Assembly (NCBI GenBank): GCA_024638325.1
Contig: JAHEKM010000002.1
Coordinates: 1 to 64,000, forward strand
DNA: 64,000 bases
From: Gemmatimonadota bacterium
GTDB lineage: Bacteria > Gemmatimonadota > Gemmatimonadetes > Longimicrobiales > Gaopeijiaceae
Direction of reading: 5' to 3'
Shown: positions 13,965 to 24,439 of the stretch, piece after piece
Layout of the letters: every line of letters begins with the position of its first letter
Numbering within the stretch: the stretch's first letter is position 1
Program-made: the position numbers and the translations under genes
The notes under the pieces: generated by a model
Database searches by the model: none
What the model saw: only the letters and a program-made list of their open reading frames with translations
What the model was told of the DNA's origin: nothing

Positions 13965-13977
13965 TTGTTGACAACAA
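13965..13977. promoter_or_regulatory. Inverted repeat TTGTTG-A-CAACAA in the divergent intergenic region upstream of leader 1/cysH
   Basis: Perfect 6-1-6 inverted repeat containing TTGACA. Confidence 0.35.
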
Positions 13978-14041: not shown

Positions 14042-14143
14042 ATGAACAGCCCACTGACCTACGCCCAGCTCTGCAGCGCCACCTGTTGCTGTTGCTGTCG
14101 CCCTTTGGCGACCGGGGACTGGAGCGTCCTGCTCAGCGGCTGA
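14042..14143 (+). CDS. Cys-rich leader peptide 1 (33 aa), candidate cysteine attenuator
   Basis: MNSPLTYAQLCSATCCCCCRPLATGDWSVLLSG; five consecutive Cys codons TGT TGC TGT TGC TGT at 14084-14098, followed by a terminator and then cysH. Confidence 0.78.
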   Translation: MNSPLTYAQLCSATCCCCCRPLATGDWSVLLSG

Positions 14144-14172
14144 CGACAAGCGTCACGCGAACCAGAACGCCC

Positions 14173-14207
14173 AAGCGGCCCCGGGAAACCGGGGCCGCTT
14201 CTTTCTT
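14173..14207 (+). terminator. Intrinsic terminator (attenuator) between leader 1 and cysH
   Basis: AAGCGGCCCCGG-GAAA-CCGGGGCCGCTT: perfect 12-bp stem with GAAA loop, then CTTTCTT; ends 13 nt before the cysH ATG. Confidence 0.85.
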
Positions 14208-14219
14208 GGTGCCTAGACC

Positions 14220-14936
14220 ATGCCGGAGACACAGGTGATCGCCACAAAGGACCCGACGCCGATGAAGCAGCTATCGCTCCCCGAGGGCATCGAGGAGACA
14301 GACGCGCGCGGTATCATCGAGTGGGCCGTACGAGCGGTCGAGCCCGATGGGCTGATCGTCTCCACGTCGTTCGGGCCGAGCGGCCTGGTGAACCTCCATC
14401 TGCTCTCCGAGGTCGCGCCGCAGGTGCCGGTGGTCTTCATCGACACGCTGTACCACTTCCAGGAGACGCTCGAGCTGGCGGACCAGGTGCGGCGCCACTA
14501 CGGACTCGACCTCCGCGTCTACCGCCCCGCGGACTCGCGCGAGGTCTTCGAACGTGAGCACGGCGAGCGGCTGTGGGAGCGAGACATCGACCGTTTTCAC
14601 TACCTGACCAAGGTCGAGCCCATGGAGCGCGCGCTCGAGGGAGTGAAGGGGTGGGTTACGGGCCGGCGGCGCGATCAGTCCGCGACGAGGGCCGAGATGC
14701 CCGTCATCGAGGTCGGCGAGCACATCAAGGTCAATCCCGTCGCGGCCTGGGGGCGGGGCGACGTGTGGCGCTTCATTCTCGAGCACGACATCCCCTACAA
14801 CCCGCTGCACGACATGGGCTACGCGAGCATTGGCGACGAGCCCCTGACCACGCCGATCCACCTGGGCGAGGACGAGCGCGCGGGCCGCTGGCGGGGCGAG
14901 GAGCGCACCGAGTGCGGGCTACACGACATCACCTAG
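14220..14936 (+). CDS. cysH: Phosphoadenosine phosphosulfate reductase (PAPS-type)
   Basis: GLIVSTSFGPSGLVNLHLL, FIDTLYHFQETLELAD, GWVTGRRRDQSATR, C-terminal ECGLH; lacks the CC/CxxC pairs of APS reductases. Confidence 0.92.
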   Translation: MPETQVIATKDPTPMKQLSLPEGIEETDARGIIEWAVRAVEPDGLIVSTSFGPSGLVNLHLLSEVAPQVPVVFIDTLYHFQETLELADQVRRHYGLDLRVYRPADSREVFEREHGERLWERDIDRFHYLTKVEPMERALEGVKGWVTGRRRDQSATRAEMPVIEVGEHIKVNPVAAWGRGDVWRFILEHDIPYNPLHDMGYASIGDEPLTTPIHLGEDERAGRWRGEERTECGLHDIT

Positions 14937-14992: not shown

Positions 14993-16528
14993 TCAGGACT
15001 CGGCCGGCTCCTGGTGGAGCATCACGTTGAGCATCCTCAGCGTCGCGTTGATACCCGCGAAGACCTGGTTGGCGTGCACCCCACGGGTGCGGAACGTCCG
15101 TTCCGGACCCTGCCAGGTGATCAGCACCTCGGTCAGGGCGCTCGTACTCCCCCCTTGGGGAATCCTCAGCTCGTAGTCCACCAGCTCGGGAAAGGCGAGC
15201 GTGTCGGGCAGGACTTTGCGTACGGCGTCGATGAAGGCGTCGAAGCCGCCGTTCCCCGCGCCGGACGCGCGTCTCACGTCGCCGTCGATGGATACACGAA
15301 TGCTCACCGTCGACTCGAGGTCCAGGCCGCTCGTCACCGAACAGCTCAACAGCTCGATATGACGGTAGTCCTTGCTCTCCAGGACGTCGGCGATGATGAA
15401 CGGGAGGTCCTCCACCGTGATGGTGGCCTTCTGATCGCCCATCTTTACGATGCGCTCGAGGACTTGGGCGTGATCCTCGGGAGAGAGATGAATCCCGATC
15501 TCTTCCAGGTTCTTTTTGAGCGATGCTTTGCCGCTCATCTTGCCGAGCGCGTAGCTACGCTTGCGACCGAAGCGCTCCGGGCCGAGGGGCGACTGGTAGA
15601 GGTCGCCCTTCTGGTCTCCGTCCGCGTGGATGCCACTGGTCTGCGTGAACACGTCCGTGCCCACCACGGGAGCGTTGTCGGCAACCCGCTTGCCCGAGAA
15701 GTTCTCGACCATGCGACTGACGGCGACCAGCTTCGTCTCGTCGATGGAGAGCTGCATTCCCATCTTGTCTCGAAGGGCCACCGCCACCTCGGCCAGTGAG
15801 ACGTTCCCGGCTCGTTCCCCCAGGCAGTTCACGGTGCAGTGGATGTCGCGCACGCCCGCCCGTATGGCGGCCATCGCGTTGGCGGTCGCAAGCCCGTAGT
15901 CGTTATGGGGGTGGAAGTCGAACGTGAGGTCGGAGAAACGGGCGACCATGTCGGACAAGGCGGCCTCGACCTCCTCGGGCGAGAGGACGCCCAGGGTGTC
16001 GGGTAGCATGACATGGGACACGCCCGTGCCCTGGAGACCGGCGACGTGCGCGTACACGTAGTCGCGATTGTCCCGGTACCCGTTCGACCAGTCCTCCAGG
16101 TACACGTTGACCGTCAGCTTCCTCTCGAGGGCGCATGCGACGGTGCGACGGACGTCGGCGAGGTGCTCTTCGGGCGCCTTCCGGAGCTGCGTCCGGCAGT
16201 GCTTCTCGCTCCCCTTCGTCAGAAGGTTCATGACGCGGGCGCCGCTTTCGACGATCCAGTCTGCACTGCGGGCGTCGTCGACGAAGCCGAGAACTTCCAC
16301 CTGGTCTCCGTGCCCCGAAGCGGTAGCCCAGTCGCAGATGCGTCGGACCGCGTCCCGCTCGCCCTTGGAGACGCCCGCGGATGCGACCTCGATCCGGTCG
16401 ACCTTCAGCACCCCGAGCAGCGCTTCGGCGATACCCACCTTCTCCGACGTGGAGAAGGAGACGTGACGCGTCTGCTCGCCGTCGCGGAGCGTGGTGTCGA
16501 GGAGCCTGACCCTGTTGCTGTCGTTCAT
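14993..16528 (-). CDS. Alpha-isopropylmalate/citramalate synthase family (DRE-TIM metallolyase)
   Basis: RVRLLDTTLRDGEQTRHVSFSTSEKVGIAEALL, FDFHPHNDYGLATANAMAAIRAGVRDIHCTVNCLGERAGNVSLAEV, C-terminal regulatory domain. Confidence 0.88.
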   Translation of the reverse strand: MNDSNRVRLLDTTLRDGEQTRHVSFSTSEKVGIAEALLGVLKVDRIEVASAGVSKGERDAVRRICDWATASGHGDQVEVLGFVDDARSADWIVESGARVMNLLTKGSEKHCRTQLRKAPEEHLADVRRTVACALERKLTVNVYLEDWSNGYRDNRDYVYAHVAGLQGTGVSHVMLPDTLGVLSPEEVEAALSDMVARFSDLTFDFHPHNDYGLATANAMAAIRAGVRDIHCTVNCLGERAGNVSLAEVAVALRDKMGMQLSIDETKLVAVSRMVENFSGKRVADNAPVVGTDVFTQTSGIHADGDQKGDLYQSPLGPERFGRKRSYALGKMSGKASLKKNLEEIGIHLSPEDHAQVLERIVKMGDQKATITVEDLPFIIADVLESKDYRHIELLSCSVTSGLDLESTVSIRVSIDGDVRRASGAGNGGFDAFIDAVRKVLPDTLAFPELVDYELRIPQGGSTSALTEVLITWQGPERTFRTRGVHANQVFAGINATLRMLNVMLHQEPAES

Positions 16529-20484: not shown

Positions 20485-20555
20485 GAAGGGGCTCCGGCGC
20501 CAGGAGCGGCGTCCCGTTGACGGTCCCCCGAAGCTACGTTTACTGTCATCCCCAC

Positions 20556-20642
20556 ATGAGGAATCGCTCGGAAGTCTGCGCCTGTTGCTGTTATGCGACG
20601 AACCGCCCCAGGGAGGGTCGGGTCGGAGACGGCTGCGCTTAG
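20556..20642 (+). CDS. Cys-rich leader peptide 2 (28 aa), candidate cysteine attenuator
   Basis: MRNRSEVCACCCYATNRPREGRVGDGCA; Cys codons TGC-GCC-TGT-TGC-TGT at 20577-20591; followed by a terminator and then cysG. Confidence 0.78.
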   Translation: MRNRSEVCACCCYATNRPREGRVGDGCA

Positions 20643-20664
20643 CGGACGCGGCGTGATTTCCGGG

Positions 20665-20695
20665 CCCCGACTTCCCACAGGAAGTCGGGGTTTTT
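20665..20695 (+). terminator. Intrinsic terminator (attenuator) between leader 2 and cysG
   Basis: CCCCGACTTCC-CACA-GGAAGTCGGGG-TTTTT: perfect 11-bp stem, tetraloop and T5 tract. Confidence 0.9.
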
Positions 20696-20743
20696 CTGTT
20701 TCGGGAGATGGAGCTTTTCTGGGCTCCGATGCATTAGGGATTC

Positions 20744-22159
20744 ATGGGTTATCCGATCCAGCTCGTTGGACTCGAGGGTAAGCGCGTGCTTCTCGCCGGC
20801 GGTGGACCCGTCGCCGCGGAGAAGATCGTGCCCCTCATTCACGCGGGAGCGCACGTGCACCTGGTGACGCCCGACGTGTCCGCGGAGATGGAGGAGTGGC
20901 TACCCAAGGTGTGGCGCTTCGACCGGCGGGAGGTCACGGACGACGACGTACCGGGGGCCAAGGTGGTTGTGGGCGCGACCGACGACGGGGACGTGAACGC
21001 ACGACTGGTGGCGGTCGCCCGTGAGCACGGCATTCTGGCCCAGGCGGCCGACGACAAGCCCAACTGCGACTTCTATTCGCCGGCCGTCGTTCGACGGGGG
21101 CCGGTGGTGATGACGATCAGCACGGACGGCGGCTCGCCCATGCTGGCCGGCCAGCTCCGGCGTGCCCTCGAGGCCGCGGTGCCGCGCAGCCTGACGGATG
21201 TCGCCGAGCTCCTCGTTCAGCTGCGCGAGCGCGGCATGAAGGGCCTCGCCAACCGCGGGAGAATGCTCAGGGCTCTGTTCGACCCGACCATCACGCGCCT
21301 CGTCGATACGGGGGATACCGACGCGGCCGCCGACCGGCTCATGGAGCTGTTCGACGAGGACGAGGAGCCGTTCGAGCCGGGGACGGTGGCGATCGTCGGA
21401 GCCGGTCCCGGAAGTAGGCACCTCCTCACGCTGCGGGCGCTCGACCGCCTCCAGCGCGCCGATGTGATCCTCCATGACGCGCTGGTGGAGGAGGAGGTGC
21501 TGCGACTCGCCCTTCCGGCGACGGAGATCGTGGACGTGGGCCGCCGCTCGCGGGCCATGGAGCCGAAGGCCGAGCCCGCCGACGCCGAGCGGATTCCGCT
21601 GATGATCGAGCACGCGCGCGCCGGCAAGCGAGTGGTGCGGCTACACGGGGGTGACCCCTTCGTGTTCGGCCGCGGTGGCGAGGAGGTCGATGCGCTCGCC
21701 GAGGCTGGCATCGTTTGGGAGGTGGTCCCAGGGGTGAGCTCAGTCATCGCCTCCGGTGCTTCCGCGGGAGTCCCCCTCACGCAACGAGACGTGGCCAAGG
21801 GCTTCACGGTTCGGACCGGGCACGACACAGCCGGTCCCACGCGGGGCGAGCTGCCGCCCGACGAGGAGACGGTCGTCGTGCTCATGGGACTCGGAGCCGC
21901 CCGGGACGTGCTGGCGGGCCTGGTGGCCGAGGGGCGTTCGCCGGATACACCGGCGCTCGCGGTCAGCGGCGCCTCGCGCCCGGGTGAGCGGGTCGTGGTG
22001 GGTACGCTCGCGACGCTGGCCGACCGGATTCAGGAAGCGGAGCTGCCCGCGCCCGCGACGCTCATGATCGGCGAGGTAGCGCGCAGGGCTCTGAACGAGC
22101 AGGATCGCAATCGCGCCGCTGCGAAGCGTGGCCCCAGGGCCACCGTCGTGGCGGTTTGA
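20744..22159 (+). CDS. cysG: Siroheme synthase (precorrin-2 dehydrogenase/ferrochelatase + uroporphyrinogen-III C-methyltransferase)
   Basis: MGYPIQLVGLEGKRVLLAGGGPVAAEKI...; GTVAIVGAGPGSRHLLTLRALDRLQRADVILHDALV; VVRLHGGDPFVFGRGGEE. Confidence 0.93.
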   Translation: MGYPIQLVGLEGKRVLLAGGGPVAAEKIVPLIHAGAHVHLVTPDVSAEMEEWLPKVWRFDRREVTDDDVPGAKVVVGATDDGDVNARLVAVAREHGILAQAADDKPNCDFYSPAVVRRGPVVMTISTDGGSPMLAGQLRRALEAAVPRSLTDVAELLVQLRERGMKGLANRGRMLRALFDPTITRLVDTGDTDAAADRLMELFDEDEEPFEPGTVAIVGAGPGSRHLLTLRALDRLQRADVILHDALVEEEVLRLALPATEIVDVGRRSRAMEPKAEPADAERIPLMIEHARAGKRVVRLHGGDPFVFGRGGEEVDALAEAGIVWEVVPGVSSVIASGASAGVPLTQRDVAKGFTVRTGHDTAGPTRGELPPDEETVVVLMGLGAARDVLAGLVAEGRSPDTPALAVSGASRPGERVVVGTLATLADRIQEAELPAPATLMIGEVARRALNEQDRNRAAAKRGPRATVVAV

Positions 22160-22180: not shown

Positions 22181-24439
22181 ATGGAAGCCGTTGGCTCCTG
22201 GCAGGACAAGCTGAAGGACCGGATCCCCGAAGAGCTGGGGCGGGAGATCGACATCTTCGAGACGCAGATGAAGCTGCGAAGGCGAGGTGAGGTGGACGAG
22301 CGCCTCTTCGCCGAGACGCGCCTGCGCCGCGGGGTGTACGGCCAGCGCTACGACAACGGCCACCGACACGACGGGACGCAGAACCGCGAGCTCGCGTATC
22401 GCGACCACCCGACCAAGGGGCCGGAGACCGTGTGGGACGCCCCGGGCATGCTCCGTATCAAGATCCCGTATGGGAAGCTGACGGCGGATCAGACGGACGT
22501 GCTCGCGGAGCTCTCCGAGGACTACGCGGATCACATCTCGCACGTGACGACGCGGCAGGACATCCAGCTGCACTTCGTGCACATCGACGACACACCGGAC
22601 ATCCAGCGTCGTCTCGCGGCCGTCGGAATCACCACGCGCGAGGCATGCGGGAACTCCGTCCGCAACATCACCGCGTGCCACCTCTCGGGCGTCTGCAAGA
22701 CCGAGGAGTTCGACGTCACGCCGTACGCCGAGGCGCTCAAGGAGTTCTTGCTCGGCCACCCGGACGTCCAGGACTTCGGCCGCAAGATGAAGCCGGCGTT
22801 CTCGGGCTGCGCGCACGAGGCATGCGGTCTCGTGAACATGCACGATGTCGGCTACATCGCGAAGACGCGTGAGGTCGACGGACAGGTGCAGCGCGGCTTC
22901 GAGTTCTACGTGGGGGGCGGACTCGGAGCGATTCCGCACGACGCCAAGGTCCTGACGGAGTTCGTGACCGAGGAAGAGCTCCTTCCGCTCACGCAGGCCG
23001 TCTGCCGGGTGTTCGCTCGCCTGGGCGAGAAGGAGAACCGCGGCCGCGCCCGCATCAAGTTCCTGGTGGCCAAGCTCGGCATCGAGGAGTTCAAGAAGCT
23101 CGTCTTCGAGGAGCGGGAGCAGTTGCCTCACGACCCGCGCTGGACGGCGTACATCGACGAGCTCCCCGACTACGACGAGAAGCCGCTTCGCCCGCCGGTG
23201 CCGCTCCAGGTGAACGGCGAACACACGCCCGAGTTCAAGGCCTGGTACGAGACCAACGTCCGGGCGCAGCGTCAGGAGGGCTACGCGGTCGCGACGATCA
23301 AGCTGCCGCTCGGCGACGCGACGGGGGATCAGATGCGCGCCATCGCGGACATCGCGAGGGAGTTCGTCGGCGACGCCATCCGGTTGACCGTCGAACAGAA
23401 CATCGTTCTGAGATGGGTCAGCGAGGCCGATCTGCCGGCGCTGTTCGAGGCCCTTGCCGCCGTGGACTTGGCGGCGCCGGGGGCCGAAACCATCGCGGAC
23501 CTCACGTCGTGCCCGGGCACGGACACGTGCAAGCTGGGCATTGCGGCGTCGCGAGGCCTGGTGGCCGAGCTGACGAACCACGTGGGCCACTTGAACGGCG
23601 GCACGGATCCGGCGTTGAAGGGTCTCCGCATCAAGGCGAGTGGCTGCTTCAACTCGTGCGGACAGCACCATGTCTCCGACCTCGGCTTCTACGGCATCAG
23701 CCGCAAGAAGGGCGGCCGACTCGTGCCGCACTTCCAGGTGGTGCTCGGCGGCAAGTGGATGGAGAACGGCGGATCGTTCGGCCTGCCGACTCTCGCGATT
23801 CCCTCGAAGAACATTCCGGAAGTCGTGAAGCGCGTCACCGACCGTTTCCTGCAGGAGCGCAACGAGAACGAGACGTTCCACGAGTTCATCGACCGGTGGG
23901 GCAAGGTCGAGGTGAAGGCCTTCCTGCAGGACCTGACCGAGGTTCCGGCCTTTGAAGAGGACCCCTCCTTCTACTCCGACTGGGGTGACCCGCGCGTGTT
24001 CACCATGGAGGACTACGGAGAGGGGGAGTGCGCCGGGGAAATCGTGCCGCTGGTCGAGTTCGGCCTTCAGTCGAGCGAGCGCGAGGTCTTCGAGGCGCAG
24101 CTCTACCTGGACGCCGGTGACATGGACAGGGCAAAGGCGATGGCGTACAAGGCGATGCTGACGGCCGCACAGGCGCTGGTGAAGACGGAGTACCTGGATG
24201 TCACCGACGATCCGGACCACATCGTCACCGAGTTTCGGACTCGCTTCCACGAAACCAAACGTTTCCACGACAAGTTCGCGGGTGCCAAGTTCGCCAACTA
24301 CCTCTTCCAGACCCACGAGAGCGGCGGGAATGGTGGCCGGCCGGAGCAGGCTCGTGACCAGGTGCAGGAGGCGCAGCTCTTCATCGAGGCGGCGTACAAG
24401 GTGTACGAGCGCATCGGCACGCAGGGGGCGCCCGCGTGA
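22181..24439 (+). CDS. Nitrite/sulfite reductase (siroheme-4Fe4S) with C-terminal helical extension
   Basis: CPGTDTCKLGIAASRG and KASGCFNSCGQHHVSDLGFYG cluster motifs; downstream of cysG. C-terminal ~150 aa looks HEPN-like. Confidence 0.9.
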   Translation: MEAVGSWQDKLKDRIPEELGREIDIFETQMKLRRRGEVDERLFAETRLRRGVYGQRYDNGHRHDGTQNRELAYRDHPTKGPETVWDAPGMLRIKIPYGKLTADQTDVLAELSEDYADHISHVTTRQDIQLHFVHIDDTPDIQRRLAAVGITTREACGNSVRNITACHLSGVCKTEEFDVTPYAEALKEFLLGHPDVQDFGRKMKPAFSGCAHEACGLVNMHDVGYIAKTREVDGQVQRGFEFYVGGGLGAIPHDAKVLTEFVTEEELLPLTQAVCRVFARLGEKENRGRARIKFLVAKLGIEEFKKLVFEEREQLPHDPRWTAYIDELPDYDEKPLRPPVPLQVNGEHTPEFKAWYETNVRAQRQEGYAVATIKLPLGDATGDQMRAIADIAREFVGDAIRLTVEQNIVLRWVSEADLPALFEALAAVDLAAPGAETIADLTSCPGTDTCKLGIAASRGLVAELTNHVGHLNGGTDPALKGLRIKASGCFNSCGQHHVSDLGFYGISRKKGGRLVPHFQVVLGGKWMENGGSFGLPTLAIPSKNIPEVVKRVTDRFLQERNENETFHEFIDRWGKVEVKAFLQDLTEVPAFEEDPSFYSDWGDPRVFTMEDYGEGECAGEIVPLVEFGLQSSEREVFEAQLYLDAGDMDRAKAMAYKAMLTAAQALVKTEYLDVTDDPDHIVTEFRTRFHETKRFHDKFAGAKFANYLFQTHESGGNGGRPEQARDQVQEAQLFIEAAYKVYERIGTQGAPA

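Follow-up and report, generated by a model that had tools for sequence, protein, structure and literature searches.

Candidate cysteine-responsive transcription attenuators upstream of sulfate-assimilation genes in Gemmatimonadota

Short open reading frames (sORFs) with runs of cysteine codons precede the cys operons of mycobacteria (Canestrari et al. 2020, doi 10.1111/mmi.14498, as cited in PMC9031893 and PMC13236596), as a sequence-only reading of the DNA analysed here had noted, and the two citing articles report them as translation attenuators. Cys leaders on actinobacterial cys operons, along with those on cbs of P. acnes and B. longum, have been predicted, and no terminators were found with them (PMC1262725). 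The uORFC-8-2 motif, which lies upstream of cysS in Rhodobacterales, consists of a Cys-codon uORF followed by an intrinsic terminator, and stalling was proposed to permit readthrough (PMC8632094). Our literature search on Cys-leader attenuation of sulfur genes returned only the actinobacterial leaders and uORFC-8-2, and a search on Gemmatimonadota, leader peptides and attenuation found no report combining the three.

The locus studied here lies in a stretch of 64,000 nucleotides from a Gemmatimonadota bacterium (contig JAHEKM010000002.1 of assembly GCA_024638325.1), hereafter the window. The sequence-only reading had described a 33-codon sORF with five Cys codons, a 12-bp terminator stem with a GAAA loop and a cysH start codon at 14220, and on direct reading all of these positions proved exact (Table 1). 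The leader encodes the peptide MNSPLTYAQLCSATCCCCCRPLATGDWSVLLSG; as no stop interrupts its frame back to 13730, the start codon given here is a predicted one. Since Cys makes up 0.66% of the codons of the window genes, the chance of five Cys in a row (TGTTGCTGTTGCTGT) within 33 codons is about 4e-10, reckoned from composition alone. The terminator stem, formed by AAGCGGCCCCGG and CCGGGGCCGCTT, is a perfect 12 bp and together with its loop occupies 14173-14200, with a computed dG of -27.5 kcal/mol, and its tail, CTTTCTTGG, holds an interrupted T tract. The full-length leader RNA folds more stably than shuffled sequences (z -3.05), and the folds contain a small hairpin that is possibly a 1:2 (protector or pause) stem. 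No clear Shine-Dalgarno sequence was found at the window cysH leader, and a promoter scan returned neither a convincing -10 nor a full consensus promoter for it; the candidate -35 is similarly placed in the relatives G115 and G116. A 2-isopropylmalate/citramalate synthase-like gene on the minus strand (14993-16528) converges on cysH.

Scanning the window for Cys runs uncovered a complete second leader with its own terminator (20556-20698) before cysG, which is absent from the sequence-only reading. The presence of two independent leader copies on two sulfur-assimilation genes within 6.5 kb argues against chance. The cysG terminator is recovered by the covariance model R1 described below, to whose training set this sequence belongs. 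The nitrite/sulfite reductase gene directly 3' of cysG probably shares its operon.

Table 1. Features of the two Cys leaders and adjacent genes in the window (predicted roles are marked as candidate or putative)
Feature	Positions	Strand	Remarks
Candidate -35 of cysH leader promoter, TTGACA	13968..13973	+	read in sequence
cysH leader ORF	14042..14143	+	ATG 14042; in-frame alternative GTG 14039; stop TGA 14141-14143; read directly
Candidate sensor, five consecutive Cys codons TGT TGC TGT TGC TGT	14084..14098	+	
Small hairpin GUCGCC-CUUU-GGCGAC	14097..14112	+	overlaps last Cys codon of cysH leader; seen in folds
Putative antiterminator strand CCGGGG	14112..14117	+	3' half of cysH leader ORF; complements CCCCGG 14179-14184
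Putative intrinsic terminator of cysH leader	14173..14207	+	12-bp stem, GAAA loop, CTTTCTT tail
cysH, phosphoadenylyl-sulfate reductase, putatively regulated gene	14220..14936	+	PF01507; NF002537 and TIGR00434 above cut-off
Promoter-like TTGACG-18-TACTGT of cysG leader	20517..20546	+	consensus match only; ATG 9 nt past -10
cysG leader ORF, MRNRSEVCACCCYATNRPREGRVGDGCA	20556..20642	+	orthologous cysG leaders in G114, G115, G116
Cys codons of cysG leader, TGC GCC TGT TGC TGT	20577..20591	+	
Putative antiterminator strand GGGAGGGTCGGGTCGG	20611..20626	+	pairs with 5' arm of cysG terminator; consensus pairs in alignment
Putative intrinsic terminator of cysG leader, GGGCCCCGACTTCC-CACA-GGAAGTCGGGGTTT and T tract	20662..20698	+	
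cysG, siroheme synthase, putatively regulated gene	20744..22159	+	TIGR01469 and TIGR01470 above cut-off
Assimilatory nitrite/sulfite reductase family protein	22181..24439	+	PF01077/PF03460; NirA/CysI-type models below cut-off

Relatives were assigned to the same family when they fell into group f1 of our genome search, the named members of which are Gemmatimonadetes and Longimicrobiales MAGs. In all 15 f1 genomes having cysH the gene is preceded by a Cys-rich leader, and nearly all of these leaders have a terminator behind them. The G087 leader is located at the end of another contig, so that its link to cysH is presumed, and the G120 leader has two Cys codons only. The Cys codons are kept in the relatives as CCCCC, CCCC or CCC, or as CC-A-[ML]-CC, and the f1 peptides range from MNTLGSMLLSNSRGCCCCRQAPGDRSALPSG to MTRNAATCCAMCCYQTFPLGGGSGRRSA. 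Our strict criteria, namely a Cys run and a terminator within 70 nt of the leader stop, were passed by 11 of 14 same-family leader regions and by none of 1400 shuffles. In two other families of the class, 22 of 24 assessable genomes have a leader either directly before cysH (for example MACCCMATLHTYGTT) or at the head of its operon. The operon-head leaders stand before cysC (MIGRHTASSCCPPCRKMCARSSGSGRGCGAVAAGMQ) or sulfite reductase (MTFRSATRSCCCCVCLCARSLGSGRRRGALSGRSG) and are separated from the downstream cysH by 0.7-4.8 kb. Among the seven cysH genomes of family f2 one passes the strict test, one more has leaders without a called terminator, and five have no leader in the roughly 1.5-5 kb of upstream DNA examined. 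Overall, about 40 leaders with Cys runs were found upstream of genes for cysteine synthesis (cysH, cysC, cysG/SUMT, sulfite reductase and cysteine synthase), in at least four Gemmatimonadota families. The proposal of a cysteine-responsive attenuator at cysH is thus supported by the recurrence of Cys codons and terminator, both across the same-family cysH genomes (15/15) and in most other Gemmatimonadota examined.

Some leaders depart from the simple arrangement. Two Cys leader-terminator units stand in series upstream of sulfite reductase in G118 (L058) and of cysH in G124 (L020), and these double units are possibly tandem attenuators. In G213 and G412 (L314 and L317) the region opens with an OsmC-like gene; the Cys leader and terminator precede this gene and are about 4.8 kb upstream of cysH. 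The leaders of family f4 (L202, L206, L209 and similar) have dispersed Cys codons, as in CCPPCRKMC; they start 7-8 nt past TTGACA-17-TAAATA promoters and are predicted to be leaderless.

The strict criteria gave no match in 3300 dinucleotide-shuffled upstream regions, at 68 outgroup cysH genes (Cyanobacteria, Planctomycetota and others), on the reverse strand of the operon regions (86 kb) or in 365 kb of control loci, and none of 30 ATP sulfurylase loci had a leader. When 126 whole genomes were searched with the codon pattern CCA[ML]CC there were six matches, five of which were these leaders; a four-Cys pattern search in G000 gave matches that were mostly out of frame or intragenic. Model R1, trained on twelve cysH, cysG and sir leaders and run over the 126 genomes, returned its training set, and its next-best matches include leaders before SUMT/cysG (G081) and cysteine synthase (G055), both from outside that set. 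The G055 leader, MACMLCACCCCCADAGPLGDGARAPCMN (L233, G055:C35), has counterparts on the nearest orthologues of the synthase in G082, G150, G078 and probably G081, and at 23 more distant PLP-enzyme loci no leader was found by the strict criteria. In G055 the synthase gene is followed by a gene for a JAB/Mec-type metalloprotease, an order that resembles the CysM/Mec+ route of cysteine synthesis. The Rfam search gave no match at the gathering threshold, the best being the terminator-like sX12 (31.8 bits, cut-off 106) and BjrC68 (23.6 bits, cut-off 39).

The leaders favour TGT, which accounts for 114 of their Cys codons against 44 TGC (72% TGT), compared with 10 TGT and 70 TGC in the window genes (12.5%). 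The peptides diverge and the Cys codons persist, varying widely in number and spacing, with flanking residues not conserved; the 3' part of the ORF encodes a recurring G-S-G-R-type ending and complements the 5' arm of the terminator. Of the 28 leaders with an automatically called terminator, 27 have a gap of 19-44 nt between the leader stop and that terminator. Promoters of the form TTGACA-17-TAnnnT were found at many leaders, and in about ten of them the start codon lies 6-9 nt past the predicted -10, which suggests leaderless translation; in the window such a start is predicted from promoter position for the cysG leader and not for the cysH leader.

We folded the nascent leader RNA with a ribosome placed either at the second Cys codon or at the stop codon. 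For a ribosome at the second Cys codon, the terminator 5' arm paired with upstream RNA at a mean probability of 0.78; for one at the stop the value was 0.35 (p 7e-9). Shuffled leaders gave 0.65 against the 0.78 of the real ones (p 8e-7). Both p values are optimistic because the leaders are related and not independent. For the cysG leader of the window the computed values were 0.84 with the ribosome stalled and 0.09 with it at the stop. RNA free of ribosomes still sequestered the 5' arm (0.71), and a 1:2 protector stem is therefore not well supported. RNAalifold, run on the aligned leaders minus the 3' arm, recovered the antiterminator (z -3.25). Antiterminator and terminator share the 5' arm. 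They have standard pairs in most alignment cells (85.6% and 91%, respectively) and two-sided changes at 5 and at 6 pairs, values that mostly exceed column shuffles and exceed every slid control; the G117 antiterminator was worse than shuffles. Cognate and non-cognate antiterminator energies differed with only mild significance (p 0.018) in a test that G+C content confounds, and we therefore preferred the ribosome-position folding and the covariation counts. Across the leader set the computations give a mutually exclusive antiterminator, open on a stall and covered when the ribosome is at the stop.

Loss of the Cys run or hairpin in relatives had been named beforehand as one result that would speak against the attenuator, and it was found that both are kept, that the peptides have diverged and that the stems covary. 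The further suggestion, that low Cys-tRNA would stall the ribosome and block the terminator, fits the ribosome-position folding, but the antiterminator of the window cysH leader itself, which has a geometry shared with the relatives, is only 6 bp long and does not rise above shuffles (p 0.24).

The anatomy of these leaders, their conservation, their specificity for cysteine-synthesis genes and their covariation are shown by the sequences, and a cysteine-specific, ribosome-mediated transcription attenuator that senses charged tRNA-Cys is very probably their best explanation. As in attenuators of the trp/his type, the leader ORF has many end-product codons and an intrinsic terminator lies between the leader stop and the first gene. 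With ample Cys-tRNA, the ribosome would clear the Cys codons, reach the leader stop and cover the 3' part of the leader ORF, leaving the 5' arm of the terminator free; the terminator would then form, and transcription would end before cysH (or cysG). With scarce Cys-tRNA, the ribosome would stall on the Cys codons and expose the 3' part of the leader ORF, the exposed segment would pair with the 5' arm, and polymerase would read into the sulfate-assimilation gene. That the leaders are translated, that ribosomes stall on them, that transcription terminates and that cysteine governs the outcome we infer from sequence.

A stalled ribosome might instead expose the ribosome-binding site of the gene, or block Rho and so relieve polarity, mechanisms that have been proposed for actinobacterial Cys leaders, the hairpin then being no terminator at all. 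Such a mechanism would agree with the mycobacterial polycysteine sORFs, which are described as acting on translation (PMC9031893, PMC13236596) and with which no terminators were found (PMC1262725), as well as with the position of the window hairpin, the end of which is only 19 nt from the cysH ATG. We nevertheless consider it improbable, since nearly all leaders have strong G+C stems followed by T tracts, the terminator stems covary, and the terminators often lie at least 100 nt before the gene and head multi-gene operons.

It is less probable again that the Cys-rich peptide is itself the sensor, as a metal- or thiol-responsive arrest peptide, in place of the Cys-tRNA supply. The recurrence of the CC-A-[ML]-CC motif in one family would suit a peptide of this sort, but the variable number and spacing of the Cys residues led us to rank metal binding low, and unconserved flanking residues, the preference for the rare codon TGT and the placement of all target genes on the route to cysteine speak for the codons and not the peptide. 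That the leaders are small functional proteins, or 3'-processed sRNAs with terminators of their own that merely lie upstream of cys genes, we regard as very unlikely indeed: although leader-sized transcripts would arise and some leader peptides, peTrpL for one, do act in trans (PMC7298713), the leader peptide has no Pfam match, nothing exceeds the Rfam cut-offs, peptide conservation is confined to the Cys residues and the antiterminator-coding end, and the location is always before sulfur genes.

A wider proposal, for which we put the chances at about even, is that Gemmatimonadota have no dedicated repressor or activator for cysteine and instead govern most of their sulfate-to-cysteine route (cysC, cysH, siroheme synthase, sulfite reductase and cysteine synthase) by one tRNA-Cys-sensing transcription-attenuation regulon, many of its leaders being leaderless mRNAs and some of them tandem. 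Such attenuation would extend the codon-specific kind to a phylum in which hardly any regulation is known, and would unite two partial precedents, the terminator-less Cys leaders on cys operons and the terminator-bearing Cys leader on cysS. Diverged natural copies are numerous, some of them paired within a genome or in tandem, which makes the antiterminator logic directly testable, and Cys leaders may serve as a sequence-only marker of cysteine-regulated operons in uncultured bacteria.

Cys-leader attenuation of these genes appears to be undescribed in Gemmatimonadota, while its principle is already known. The novelty that had been claimed holds insofar as we found no report for cysH in this phylum, but an earlier study had proposed a Cys leader with an intrinsic terminator for the cysS gene of Rhodobacterales (PMC8632094); the host phylum, the gene set and the scale are what is unreported. 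With the trp, his and leu attenuators the present leaders share end-product codons in the leader peptide, a terminator, and an antiterminator lying between leader peptide and terminator, and differ in that the amino acid sensed would be Cys, that the phylum is another and that a 1:2 protector stem is not established. The mycobacterial leaders are likewise short ORFs with Cys runs before cysteine-synthesis genes on which ribosome speed depends on cysteine, and several Gemmatimonadota leaders may be leaderless too, starting 6-9 nt after a predicted -10; the mycobacterial ones are reported to lack an intrinsic terminator and to act at the level of translation, whereas those of Gemmatimonadota, a different phylum, have a strong terminator and an alternative antiterminator. 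The uORFC-8-2 motif is also a Cys-codon uORF followed by an intrinsic terminator, but it is confined to cysS in one alphaproteobacterial order and has two Cys codons with UGC dominant (PMC8632094), whereas the Gemmatimonadota leaders stand before sulfate-assimilation and cysteine synthase genes and carry up to five or more Cys codons, with TGT dominant.
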